A stretch of 64,000 nucleotides of DNA from Burkholderiales bacterium (lineage in GTDB: Bacteria; Pseudomonadota; Gammaproteobacteria; Burkholderiales; Burkholderiaceae_C), in NCBI GenBank assembly GCA_947372465.1, contig CANBTT010000006.1, positions 19,921 to 83,920 on the forward strand. The letters run 5' to 3'. Positions 9,260 through 41,406 of the stretch are shown here, piece after piece. Every line of letters starts with the position of its first letter. The first letter of the stretch is position 1. The notes below the pieces were generated by a model. The model was not told the DNA's origin and did not search any database. It was given only the letters and a program-made list of their open reading frames with translations. Position numbers and translations under genes: made by a program.

Positions 9260-10816
9260 TTAGAAATCAAACCCCAATTGTTCAGGTGCTATGGACTCGC
9301 CTGCAAGTTTCTTTTTGGGGCGGGGAGCGCTGCGGCGCGAGGCGTGCTTGTCGATGACGGCTTTGTTTGCAATGCGCACGTCCGAATTTTTGCGACGAGC
9401 ATGCACTTTCTCCTTGGCATCCCGTGTCGCCAACGCCAAATCAACCAGTGGCTCAGGCATGTCCAACGGATTGGACACACCATTGGCGTGCATCAAATCT
9501 TGGCGCATTTTCCAGGGTTCAAAAAGCCATGCATCCGGGAGGGCCTTCATTGCAGGAAGCCAGCGCCTTACAAAGATGCCTTTGGGATCGTGATCTTGGG
9601 CTTGTTTGATGGGGTTGTAAACGCGGGTTAAATTGATGCCTGTGGTGCCCGATTGCATTTGCATTTGGCTCCAGTGGATCCCTGGTTCATAATCTAAAAA
9701 CTGTGTGGCCAGCCACTCGCCCACAGGGCGCCAATGCAGCCACAGGGGATACGCCGCAACGGAGACCAGCATGGCCCGCATTCGAAAATTCAGCCATCCC
9801 GTTTCTCTTAGCATGGTCACACTGGCGTCAACCATGGGCCAACCGGTTCGAGCCGCTTTCAGGGCTTCAAAATACATTGGATTCAATGCGTGTTCTCGCA
9901 AATCATCGTATCCGCGGTGCATGTTGCGCATTTCGATGGCGGGTTCGCTCTCGAGCTTTTGAATGAAGTGGCAATGCCAGTAAAGGCGACTCACAAAGGC
10001 CGTTAAACCTGCGCGGTGGCGGCTCGCTTGAGCGGGCAGGAGAGCCAGGCATGCCCGAGTTTCTTGCACCACTTCTCGCATGCTGATACAACCATAGGCC
10101 AGATAGGCAGAAAGGCGTGAGCAAGCATTGGGTGCCGACAAGGGTGAAGAAATGCCCCCGCGATAGCCAATGCTGCGGGCGTTCAGGAAATTGTGGAGTG
10201 TCTTCAATGCTTGAGGGCGCCCCCCCCGTTGTCTCAAGGGGGGGTTGTGCTCCAAGTGGGCGGGGGCGGTCATTGATAAGGGTTCCAGGCAAGCTTGGCG
10301 CCAAAAAGTCAATGATTCAATGTTTACTCTGGGTGAGGCCATGTGTCGCTCCCACTCGCCTTGCCAGACATTTCGATCTTTGAGACGCCGCACAACGCCA
10401 AACTGTGCAAATTCTGTCCATGCCAGGTCTTTGGACTTGCACCATGCGGCCACTTGAAGGTCGCGTCGATAAGTAAATCCGTTGCCTGTTTCTTCGTGTG
10501 AATAAAGCCCAGTAAAAGGCTCGGTTCGCCAAATGCGTTCCAGCACATCGGTCATTTCTCCCGTGTGGATCTCAATGCATCCACCCAGCTTGCGAAAATG
10601 TCTGTCAAGTGCTTGCAAGGACTCCCGCACGAATTCAAAGTGCTGAAGCGCGCAATCGGGTTGCAGCCAAAAATTGGGCTCAATCACATAGATGCAGCGC
10701 ACAGGCCCTTTTTGTGAGGCTTGTGCAAGGGCCGCATGATCTTGCCATCGCAAATCGCGTTTGAACCAAACCAAAGAATAAGTCAAGGGTGCTTTTCGCG
10801 AGGGTTTAAAACGCAA
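9260..10816 (-). CDS. Cryptochrome/photolyase family protein (FAD-binding)
   Basis: LVWFKRDLRWQDHAALAQA...SFVSRLYWHCHFIQKLE-type helix region (FVSRLYWHCHFIQKLE), GWPMVDASVTMLRETGWLNFRMRAMLVSVAAY, QMQSGTTGINLTRVYNPIKQAQDHDPKGIFVRRWLP. Confidence 0.92.
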   Translation of the reverse strand: MRFKPSRKAPLTYSLVWFKRDLRWQDHAALAQASQKGPVRCIYVIEPNFWLQPDCALQHFEFVRESLQALDRHFRKLGGCIEIHTGEMTDVLERIWRTEPFTGLYSHEETGNGFTYRRDLQVAAWCKSKDLAWTEFAQFGVVRRLKDRNVWQGEWERHMASPRVNIESLTFWRQACLEPLSMTAPAHLEHNPPLRQRGGRPQALKTLHNFLNARSIGYRGGISSPLSAPNACSRLSAYLAYGCISMREVVQETRACLALLPAQASRHRAGLTAFVSRLYWHCHFIQKLESEPAIEMRNMHRGYDDLREHALNPMYFEALKAARTGWPMVDASVTMLRETGWLNFRMRAMLVSVAAYPLWLHWRPVGEWLATQFLDYEPGIHWSQMQMQSGTTGINLTRVYNPIKQAQDHDPKGIFVRRWLPAMKALPDAWLFEPWKMRQDLMHANGVSNPLDMPEPLVDLALATRDAKEKVHARRKNSDVRIANKAVIDKHASRRSAPRPKKKLAGESIAPEQLGFDF

Positions 10817-37316: not shown

Positions 37317-37549
37317 TATTTCTATACACATGGATGCGTTGCTTCATGGCGGGTTTTGACAAGCCAATTGCGAGTTGACGCCTTGTTTGCTGTGTGAGAA
37401 CGGGAAAAAAATTCAAGTTCTAAAGTGCGGGACTTGTAATTTTTCCTTTTGACCTCATCTTTGTTCTTTGCTCTTGCCAGAGCCAAACCCGTTGACGCAT
37501 GTTGAGGGGTGGGTCCATCAAAACAGTGTGTCGGATTTTGGAGGCAGCT

Positions 37550-39055
37550 ATGCATATTTTTTGTCCGTGTTCAAAGCTTGTTCGTTGCGCAATGGTGGCG
37601 CTTTGCCTTGCGTGCTTGGGGGCGACTTCCATGGCCGCGGGCCCTCAGCCCAACACGACTGCCCCTGTGGTTCGCGCCTTGCCCGACTTCACCGATTTGG
37701 TGGAGCTGGTGGGTCCATCGGTTGTGAACATCCGCACCATAGAAAAAGTGCTTGCCCGCTCCCCAGCCGCCAACGGCCAAGCGGACGGGGAAGAGGAGAT
37801 GCAGGAGCTTTTTAAGAAGTTTTTTGGCATGCCTTTCCCAGGGGCGCCAAGTGGGCCCAATGCGCCGCGTCAACAACGCCCCAACCGAAGTGCGCCCCAA
37901 GAGGAGGAGCAACCCAAAGGCGTGGGCTCGGGTTTTATATTGAGTGCAGATGGCCTGATCATGACCAATGCGCACGTGGTGGAAGGGGCCGATCAAGTGG
38001 TGGTCACTTTGCCGGACAAAAGAGAATTCAGAGCAAAAATAATTGGCACTGATCGAAGAACCGATGTGGCTGTGGTGAAAATTGAAGCCGCTGGTTTGCC
38101 TGCTGTTCGAATTGGCGATGTGAGCCGCTTAAAGGTGGGTGAGTGGGTGATGGCCATCGGATCTCCCTTTGGTTTTGAGAACACCGTGACCGCTGGTATC
38201 GTGAGTGCCAAGCAAAGAGACACGGGGGAGTTTGTCTCTTTCATTCAGACCGATGTGGCGATCAATCCAGGCAACTCGGGTGGCCCTTTGATCAATATGC
38301 GAGGTGAGGTGATTGGTATCAACAGTCAGATCTATTCGCGTTCGGGTGGTTTCATGGGCATTTCATTTGCGATTCCCATCGATGAGGCTGTTCGTGTGAG
38401 TGATCAACTCAGAGTGAGTGGACGCGTGCAAAGAGGGCGATTGGGGATTCAAATTGGCGCCGTCAGCAAAGAATTGGCAGAGTCCATGGGTTTGGCAAAA
38501 GCAATGGGTGCACTTGTACAAAACGTCGAGGCCAATTCTCCTGCAGAAAAAGCCGGCCTTGAGGCGGGTGACATCATCACGAAGGTCGACGGCAAGGTGG
38601 TTGAAAAATCCATCGATTTGCCGCGCTTTGTGGGCGGGATCAAACCGGGCTCAAAGGCAACAGTGACGGTCCTCAGAAGAGGGGTCAACAAAGACATTGC
38701 CGTGATGGTGGGTGAATTTGAGTCGGATAAAAAGATGGCAAGCCAAGCGCCTGCTGAAAAAGCGCCAGCGCAATCGACGTTTTCTGCCTTGGGCTTGAGC
38801 CTGAGTGATTTGACCGAGGGCATGAAGCGTGAACTTAAAGTGCGCATCGGTGTTCGGGTTGACCAGGCCACCGATGCTGCAGCGCGAGCGGGACTCAAAG
38901 AGGGCGATATTGTTTTGCAATTGGCCAATGTGGAGATTCAATCGGTGAAAGATTTCGAGACGACGTTTGCTCGTTTGGACAAGAGCAAAGCCACAACGGT
39001 CCTTTTTAAACGAGGTGAATGGGCGCAATACGCCATTATTCGCCCCAGCAAGTAA
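37550..39055 (+). CDS. DegQ/DegP/MucD-like Do-family periplasmic serine protease with two PDZ domains
   Basis: GSGFILSADGLIMTNAHVVEGADQVVVTL, RRTDVAVVKIEA, INPGNSGGPLINMRGEVIGINSQIYS. Confidence 0.96.
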   Translation: MHIFCPCSKLVRCAMVALCLACLGATSMAAGPQPNTTAPVVRALPDFTDLVELVGPSVVNIRTIEKVLARSPAANGQADGEEEMQELFKKFFGMPFPGAPSGPNAPRQQRPNRSAPQEEEQPKGVGSGFILSADGLIMTNAHVVEGADQVVVTLPDKREFRAKIIGTDRRTDVAVVKIEAAGLPAVRIGDVSRLKVGEWVMAIGSPFGFENTVTAGIVSAKQRDTGEFVSFIQTDVAINPGNSGGPLINMRGEVIGINSQIYSRSGGFMGISFAIPIDEAVRVSDQLRVSGRVQRGRLGIQIGAVSKELAESMGLAKAMGALVQNVEANSPAEKAGLEAGDIITKVDGKVVEKSIDLPRFVGGIKPGSKATVTVLRRGVNKDIAVMVGEFESDKKMASQAPAEKAPAQSTFSALGLSLSDLTEGMKRELKVRIGVRVDQATDAAARAGLKEGDIVLQLANVEIQSVKDFETTFARLDKSKATTVLFKRGEWAQYAIIRPSK

Positions 39056-39326
39056 GACCATTCGCTCGGCAAGGCGCTCAAAGAAATTTTGATTTTTTAC
39101 TACGAAAGGTAACAAAAAAGATTAAAAATACCCTAAAACTCTGTCGGGTATAAGGGAATTGATGCAAAAATGGCACTCGGTCAATTTTTTTTTAGGATTT
39201 TTTGTTTCAAGAAATTGAAAATAAAAGAATGTTTTTTTATTACAATTCTTCGTTAGAATCAAAGCATGTCAAATGCAAATCCAACTTCAGATTGTGAAAA
39301 TCACTTGTTATGCTGATACGCACACT

Positions 39327-39403
39327 GTCTCCACAATTACTCCACAGCTCACACACAAGTTGTTCTTCTTAAATAAACAATACTGTGAATAAGCTGTGAA
39401 TAA
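39327..39403. promoter_or_regulatory. Cluster of DnaA-box-like 9-mers in inverted pairs
   Basis: GTCTCCACA (39327-39335) and TACTCCACA (39338-39346), both near-matches to TTATCCACA; TGTGAATAA (39384-39392) and TGTGAATAA (39395-39403), which are the reverse complement of TTATTCACA. Both pairs have an 11-bp start-to-start spacing. Confidence 0.5.
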
Positions 39404-39480
39404 TATCCATGTTGTTGACCTACAACGAACCATTCAAGACAAATCATGGGATGTCATTGAAAGCAATTTTGCCTACAATG

Positions 39481-39550
39481 AAGTCCCAACTATCGCAGTT
39501 GCCATAGATTGTTGGTTCCGGGCGCGTCAGCAGTTGACGCGCCCTTTTTT
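39481..39550 (+). ncRNA. Candidate small RNA or lepA leader ending in a strong terminator
   Basis: CAACT-ATCGC-AGTTG hairpin followed by GGGCGCGTC-AGCAGTT-GACGCGCCC-TTTTTT in an ORF-free gap. Confidence 0.4.
39520..39550 (+). terminator. Rho-independent terminator upstream of lepA
   Basis: Perfect 9-bp stem GGGCGCGTC/GACGCGCCC, 7-nt loop, then T6. Confidence 0.88.
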
Positions 39551-39594
39551 ATGTCAATGATCGTTTGAATTCAACTACTTAGGTCTTTCCTTTG

Positions 39595-41406
39595 ATGAAG
39601 CACATCAGAAATTTTTCAATCATTGCCCACATTGATCATGGTAAATCAACCCTCGCCGATCGTTTGATTCAGCGCTGTGGGGGGCTCGAGGCGCGTGAGA
39701 TGCAGGCGCAAGTTTTGGATTCGATGGACATTGAGAAAGAGCGTGGGATAACCATCAAGGCGCAAACGGCTTCATTGCTGTACAAGGCGAAAAATGGTGA
39801 GACGTACAACCTGAACTTGATCGATACGCCGGGTCACGTTGATTTCTCTTACGAGGTCTCTCGCTCCTTGTCGGCGTGTGAGGGCGCTTTGTTGGTGGTG
39901 GATGCTTCACAAGGTGTAGAGGCTCAAACCGTCGCGAACTGTTACACCGCACTCGACTTGGGTGTGGAGGTGATCCCTGTGCTCAACAAGATGGATTTGC
40001 CTCAGGCCGATCCAGAAAATGCAAAAACAGAAATTGAAGATGTGATCGGGATCGATGCGTCTGATGCCATTCCATGTTCGGCCAAGACCGGCATGGGCAT
40101 TGATGAAATATTAGAAGCCATTGTGGCGCACGTGCCTGAACCCCGGGGCAATCCAGACGGTGCCCTACGCGCCATGATCGTTGACAGCTGGTTTGATAGC
40201 TATGTGGGTGTCGTCATGCTCGTGCGCGTGGTCGATGGCGAGCTCAACTGCGGCGACCGCATCAAAATGATGGCGACGGGGACGACCTACATTGCCGAAA
40301 AATTGGGCGTCTTCACACCGGCCAATCAACCCAAGCAAAAGCTAAGTGCAGGACAGGTGGGCTACATCATTGCGGGCATCAAAGAGTTGCAAGCGGCCAA
40401 AGTGGGTGACACGATCACGCAGATCAAGCAGGGCACGGGTGGCGCGAGCGCCACCGCCACAGAGGCTTTGCCCGGCTTCAAAGAGATTCAGCCCCAGGTG
40501 TTTGCAGGCCTGTACCCAACCGAGGCCAATCAATACGACTCATTGAGAGACAGTCTAGAGAAGTTAAAACTCAATGACGCCTCTCTTCAGTACGAGCCCG
40601 AAGTGTCCCAAGCTTTGGGTTTTGGCTTTCGCTGTGGCTTTCTAGGTCTTTTGCACATGGAGATTGTGCAAGAACGACTCGAGCGAGAGTTTGACCAGGA
40701 CTTGATCACAACCGCCCCCAGTGTGGTCTACCAAGTGGTCAAAGGGGACGGGGAAGTTGTGATGGTAGAGAACCCCTCCAAAATGCCCGAACAAGGCAAG
40801 CTGCAAGAAATCAGAGAGCCCATTGTGACCGTTCACTTGTACATGCCCCAAGAGTATGTCGGTGCGGTGATGACCTTGGCCAATCAAAAACGTGGCGTGC
40901 AACTCAACATGGCCTACCACGGCAGGCAAGTGATGCTGACCTATGAGCTGCCCTTGGGGGAAATCGTTTTGGATTTCTTTGACAAACTCAAATCCGTCTC
41001 AAGAGGCTACGCCTCCATGGACTACGATTTCAAAGAGTACCGTGCCTCGGATGTGGTGAAGGTCGACATTTTGCTCAATGGTGAAAAGGTCGATGCCTTG
41101 TCCATCATTGTGCACCGAACGCAGTCTCAGTACAGAGGTCGCGCCGTGGTTGCAAAAATGAGAGAGATCATCTCCAGGCAAATGTTTGATGTGGCGATTC
41201 AGGCCGCGATTGGTGCTAATATCATCGCTCGCGAGTCGATCAAGGCGCTTAGAAAAAATGTCTTGGCCAAGTGCTACGGGGGAGACATCTCAAGAAAGAG
41301 AAAGCTCCTTGAAAAGCAAAAGGCGGGTAAGAAAAGAATGAAACAAATTGGCTCTGTAGAAGTTCCACAAGAGGCCTTTTTAGCAATACTGCAAGTGGAG
41401 GATTGA
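39595..41406 (+). CDS. lepA: Elongation factor 4 (LepA)
   Basis: [57 protein letters not shown]-terminal [42 protein letters not shown]. Confidence 0.99.

Follow-up and report, generated by a model that had tools for sequence, protein, structure and literature searches.

The gap preceding lepA in the 64-kb stretch of DNA analyzed here (the window) carries two conserved blocks, a DnaA-box-like array and a short gene, which we interpret, with about an even chance of being right, as the control region and gene of a small RNA (sRNA) that is predicted to be controlled by DnaA, to block start codons, and in this way to tune nucleoid proteins. How bacteria match their nucleoid proteins to replication is little understood, and the sequence predicts a short path that leads from a DnaA site through an sRNA to a shared start-codon target. 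The broader proposal, that DnaA sets the level of one sRNA which blocks the starts of several unrelated nucleoid-protein mRNAs at once, family-wide, and so couples replication to chromatin composition, is put forward more tentatively, as somewhat short of an even chance. If it is true, a replication protein would be linked to chromatin-protein production via a small RNA. Family refers throughout to the GTDB family, mostly Comamonadaceae.

The gap extends over 536 bp from the stop codon of the mucD-like gene to lepA and has a G+C content of 36%, against about 52% in its surroundings. Its longest ORF has 54 aa and was judged implausible as a gene, which agrees with the initial annotation of the gap as ORF-free and AT-rich. 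A small ORF at 39396-39560 was considered and rejected, as it runs over the terminator and its frame, judged by eye from the alignment of relatives, is not conserved. The lepA gene was present in all 61 genomes searched, including the window's own and 36 others of its genus, and in the loci of the genus with both flanks present the gap before lepA is 443-560 bp long. The alignment of relatives revealed the two strongly conserved blocks within the gap, namely the DnaA-box-like array and, downstream of it, the hexamer TACAAT followed by a near-invariant stretch that terminates in GGGCGCGTC...GACGCGCCCTTTTTT (Table 1). Further conserved elements were observed upstream of these blocks. TAGAAT at 39254-39259 is a second conserved -10-like hexamer, about 215 bp upstream of the -10 of the RNA gene and identical in relatives; TAAAAT or TAGAAT hexamers are found close before lepA in other Burkholderiales, and TAGAAT 39254-39259 may be the ancestral lepA promoter, with the array and the RNA gene lying between it and lepA. 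A CCACNATNNGGGAT-like element, upstream of the array and about 165 bp before the -10, is conserved in L201, L202, L199, and the loci of the genus and is perhaps another protein site.

Table 1. Features in and around the gap before lepA (positions in the window)
Feature	Position	Strand	Remark
mucD-like (DegP/HtrA-type) protease gene	37499..39055	+	upstream edge of gap
F1 GTCTCCACA	39327-39335	+	weak DnaA-box-like 9-mer, forward array 39327..39368
F2 TACTCCACA	39338-39346	+	weak DnaA-box-like 9-mer; family consensus NNNTCCACA
F3 TCACACACA	39349-39357	+	weak DnaA-box-like 9-mer; family consensus TC[A/G]CCCACA
F4 TTGTTCTTC	39360-39368	+	degenerate in the window's genome; family consensus TTGT[T/C]CANA
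R1 TTATTCACA	39384-39392	-	reverse double DnaA box 39384..39403
R2 TTATTCACA	39395-39403	-	2 bp from R1; R1-R2 is the most conserved core of the array
Inverted repeat GTTG(C/T)-N6-(G/A)CAAC	39411..39426		conserved, between array and promoter (GTTGC-N6-GCAAC)
-10-like hexamer TACAAT	39474..39479	+	-10 of the RNA gene; 70 bp from R2, without a good -35
Small RNA gene, ~65 nt	39486..39550	+	5' end inferred from the -10
Loop GCAGTTGCCAT	39495..39505	+	complementary to ATGGCAACTGC at target start codons
Intrinsic terminator	39520..39550	+	stem GGGCGCGTCA...TGACGCGCCC 39520-39544, T-run 39545-39550
lepA (elongation factor 4)	39592..41406	+	translation start TTG 39592 or ATG 39595

The initial annotation had reported GTCTCCACA at 39327, TACTCCACA at 39338, and TGTGAATAA at 39384 and 39395, spaced 11 bp start to start in each pair and with the pairs in opposite directions, all of which was found to be correct in the window. 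Across 98 sequences the array follows a strict grammar in which neighboring 9-mers within each set are separated by 2 bp, the reverse pair (R1-R2) follows up to four forward sites (F1-F4), and 15-17 bp lie between F4 and R1. The consensus of R1 and R2 in these sequences is TTATN[C/A]ACA; the N position of R2 is occupied by T in 29, C in 29, A in 22, and G in 18, and the other positions are more than 90% uniform except for the C/A site. Because N is degenerate while the neighboring positions are fixed, R1 and R2 are considered DnaA-box-like. About a third of the reverse boxes carry A instead of C at position 6, which is a weak DnaA variant. It might be proposed from this variant that the 11-bp-spaced sites bind a non-DnaA protein which reads TTATN[C/A]ACA and regulates the sRNA. 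However, the exact DnaA consensus, the degenerate fifth position, and a 2-bp spacing like that of DnaA in vivo (PMC11317965) make such a protein very unlikely. The reverse pair consists of two same-orientation 9-mers close to TTATNCACA, i.e., a double box, and boxes 2-3 bp apart are the preference of E. coli DnaA in vivo (PMC11317965), so that the earlier identification of the motifs as putative DnaA boxes gains support from the site grammar as well as from the E. coli precedent. The conserved inverted repeat between the array and the promoter is presumed to be the site of a second factor besides DnaA.

An RNA helix in which the forward motifs pair with the reverse motifs was also considered. 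About a third of the reverse boxes contain TGTT and the partner CACA hardly changes; since the TGTT changes break the pairing without compensation, this helix was rejected. Within the 64-kb window, TTATNCACA occurs three times against 0.9 expected, which is weak when taken alone, and because the enrichment is only mild the comparison with relatives had to decide. A single TTATTCACA on the minus strand at 10497-10505 lies inside an ORF and has no partner box.

Among 79 non-redundant loci of relatives, 74 have the reverse pair at a distance of 68-71 bp from the -10; these loci were not chosen for the double box, and at most one mismatch was allowed in each box. A figure of 100/106 took in loci chosen for the double box, and 74/79 is thus the unbiased count. 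None of the 79 loci had the pair elsewhere in the 230 bp examined, and it did not occur in any of 2120 shuffled upstream sequences. Measured from the end of R2 to the -10, the distance is 69-70 bp in nearly all of the 98 sequences and 70 bp in the window. Exactly one perfect double box was present in 57/151 family genomes (0 for the reversed control), and in 30 of the 30 loci examined the perfect double box found genome-wide was the site in the lepA gap, compared with a perfect double box in 14/243 sampled genomes from other families of the order. In some of the more distant family members (L276, L278, L285, and L203), the reverse pair is retained and the forward array is missing, suggesting that the pair is the core of the array. 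The fixed promoter distance of ~70 bp, together with the conservation of the RNA gene, leads to transcription control as the first reading of the array. The RNA gene and its promoter are kept and the array is gone in a Delftia locus (L118) and a Polaromonas MAG (L151), which are natural experiments on the role of the array. Such losses, found in a few loci, show that the RNA can exist without the array.

It has also been proposed, in the initial annotation, that the gap resembles oriC or a datA/DARS-like locus. In the latter case, DnaA would assemble on the array and be reactivated, inactivated, or titrated there, with the RNA gene as no more than a separately regulated neighbor. This is consistent with the clustering of strong and weak boxes in a non-coding gap outside oriC, as at DARS and datA (PMC4585315), with the location of the site about a quarter of the genome from dnaA in many genomes, and with the loci that retain the RNA without the array, but a pure DnaA-modulating site would not need the distance from R2 to the -10 to be fixed at about 70 bp. 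Moreover, the distance from dnaA to the lepA site is variable, roughly 15-47% of the genome (mostly 22-28%, with exceptions near 15, 41, and 47%), so that a strict mid-replichore position was dropped as evidence for DARS. We therefore consider a DARS/datA-like site unlikely as the explanation of the gap, and the titrating or reactivating role keeps that measure of probability.

The oriC part of the proposal, by contrast, does not hold, and we give it practically no weight. It draws on the paired DnaA boxes and AT-rich tracts of one genome, that of the window; most relatives have a gap G+C of mostly 0.38-0.49 and lack these tracts, which do not align, and the supposed DUE-like AT tract is therefore not conserved. 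The GC-skew check suggested at the outset was carried out on the complete family genome G129. Counted from dnaA, its skew is positive between about 0.2 and 2.2 Mb and then turns negative; the lepA site, at 1.0 Mb, lies within the positive part. The skew thus keeps its sign across the lepA site and changes at dnaA instead; that of G413 agrees, though it is weak, and no flip was found within the window. The dnaA gene lies about 1 Mb from the site in complete genomes, and in members of the genus it has its own TTATCCACA boxes beside the gene. A full dnaA was not found in the window's own draft genome.

The second conserved block has the features of a trans-acting sRNA gene as predicted from sequence, i.e., its own promoter (with a weak -35), an intrinsic terminator, and a conserved structure. 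From the -10 to the T-run, the mean column identity is 84% in 64 distinct sequences. The predicted fold, which consists of a hairpin CCAAC...GTTGG with the conserved loop plus the terminator, has a z-score of -5.0 relative to shuffles. The stems barely vary within alignment A1, which lends the fold almost no covariation support, and paired terminator changes were found in divergent relatives (GTC/GAC to GTT/AAC in L195 and G-C to A-T in L205). The terminator stem (39520-39544) is almost invariant in alignment A1, beyond what a terminator needs, and possibly serves another function as well. A poor -35 that differs between loci, as found here, would fit an activator-dependent promoter.

The RNA gene is present in one copy in the window's genome. 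A pattern scan of named genomes located the RNA block in Limnohabitans, Rhodoferax, Polaromonas, Variovorax, Acidovorax, Ramlibacter, Delftia, and others. In all loci with sequence reaching that far, the block precedes lepA by about 100 bp. The scan also gave one unrelated chance match (L082). Among 399 genomes sampled order-wide, the RNA was found in 12 family members, and outside the family there were only weak matches (best E = 1.8e-5). The bacteria in which the RNA is conserved form a common freshwater and soil group. The RNA is absent from Rfam, in which no match was found over the RNA gene and none above the gathering score nearby. No report of this RNA or of the site was found in the open literature, a coverage that leaves out most subscription journals.

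The location of the terminator about 45 bp before lepA raises another possibility, namely that the RNA is chiefly an attenuated leader of the lepA operon, in which the terminator sets read-through, DnaA or another factor acts at the promoter, and the matches to start codons are only a secondary feature. A hairpin followed by a T-run within 150 bp before lepA was found in 9/24 other Burkholderiales families (loci L055-L075) against 0.2 expected in shuffles, which suggests lepA-operon attenuation in those families. However, the hairpin and the loop are conserved far beyond the need of a terminator, and the codon-constrained partner of the loop (see below) occurs in the same family only, so that a role chiefly as leader appears quite unlikely. 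A DARS/datA role and a lepA-leader role are each compatible with the sRNA circuit and could coexist with it.

Support for a trans-acting sRNA also comes from the conserved complementarity to the translation starts of its candidate targets. The invariant loop GCAGUUGCCA(U) is complementary to AUGGCAACUGC, which comprises the start codon and codons 2-4 of genes for histone H1-like (Pfam HC2, NCBIfam NF038053), SWIB-domain, and extended HU-like proteins. When six family genomes were searched for TGGCAACTGC, the reverse complement of the loop, 103 matches were obtained, compared with 46 for the reversed control, and in the four genomes inspected some of the matches lie exactly on start codons, as ATGGCAACTGC[A/G]AA encoding MATAK. 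An any-codon search with ATGGCNACNGCNAARAAR gave matches in 55/61 family genomes and none with the reversed control. The 11-mer complementary to the loop is lacking in the family genomes G458, G460, and G484. Among MATAKK starts, 99/112 in the family carry exactly ATGGCAACTGC versus 16/71 in those other families of the order that have no strong sRNA match (Fisher p = 9e-20, an optimistic value because the target genes are partly related). The third codon is ACT in 105/112 family starts versus 25/71 in the other families; in the rest of the same family genes, ACT makes up 10% of the Thr codons and GCA 21% of the Ala codons. Start-codon regions have codon biases of their own, and GCA is common in the other families too. 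As evidence for targets obtained without experiment, the concentration of this codon choice in the family that bears the sRNA is unusually strong.

Full-length sRNA duplex energies were uninformative, being dominated by the GC-rich terminator, and loop-only energies were used. The loop pairs with the H1-like start of the window's genome at -22.3 kcal/mol, which was matched by 0 of 5000 shuffles, and the best value among 47 other gene starts in the window is -14.5 kcal/mol. The two codon sets that are mostly used rank 1 and 3 of the 64 synonymous versions by loop pairing. Two such starts were found in the genome of the window; one belongs to an H1-like gene, and the other is cut by a contig end. 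Acidovorax-type loops have a different base in place of the last U and form only 10 pairs. The near-invariance of both the loop and its targets leaves no covariation between the two.

Taken as an sRNA circuit, the features would work as follows. DnaA, probably mainly in its ATP form since most of the sites are weak, would occupy the reverse double box (39384-39403) together with the forward array (39327-39368). From this fixed position it would regulate the weak promoter at 39474, and a second factor bound to the GTTGC-N6-GCAAC repeat may take part. Once expressed, the ~65-nt RNA would expose the loop GCAGUUGCCAU for pairing with the start codons of the H1-like, SWIB-domain, and extended HU-like mRNAs, and this pairing would block their translation. 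The status of DnaA would thereby be wired to chromatin-protein synthesis, with DnaA acting as either an activator or a repressor of the sRNA promoter.

Parts of this predicted circuit have counterparts in known systems. The low-affinity arrays of E. coli oriC likewise consist of converging, oppositely oriented weak 9-mers, which are 2 bp apart; the array described here differs in that it is not at the origin and has no conserved unwinding element. The double boxes of E. coli nrdA, polA, and purH are likewise two same-direction 9-mers 2-3 bp apart upstream of a promoter, but they regulate protein genes (PMC11317965). The promoter downstream of the double box described here belongs to a small RNA, and the locus has a second array facing the other way. 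DARS1, DARS2, and datA are also non-coding DnaA-box clusters away from oriC (PMC4585315), but the array before lepA has a fixed spacing to the promoter and a variable chromosomal position. EcpR1 of Sinorhizobium is similarly a trans-acting sRNA tied to cell-cycle control; it belongs to another lineage and acts on cell-cycle regulation (PMC4414408), whereas in the circuit proposed here the sRNA is itself acted on by a replication protein.

The closest counterpart of the RNA, compared by mechanism only, is IhtA of Chlamydia, a proven repressor in which loop 1 lies over the AUG of the histone H1-like gene hctA (PMC4355289). Both are short, terminator-ended sRNAs with a loop over the start codon of a histone H1-like mRNA (PMC4355289). 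IhtA comes from an unrelated lineage, its core has 7 nt (CAUGGCG) compared with 11 nt (AUGGCAACUGC) here, and the accessible portion of its description reports no DnaA boxes (PMC4355289). Furthermore, several gene families share the target site in the present case, and repression has been proven for IhtA and is predicted for the RNA described here. Convergence of the two would suggest that small-RNA control of histone-like proteins has arisen repeatedly.
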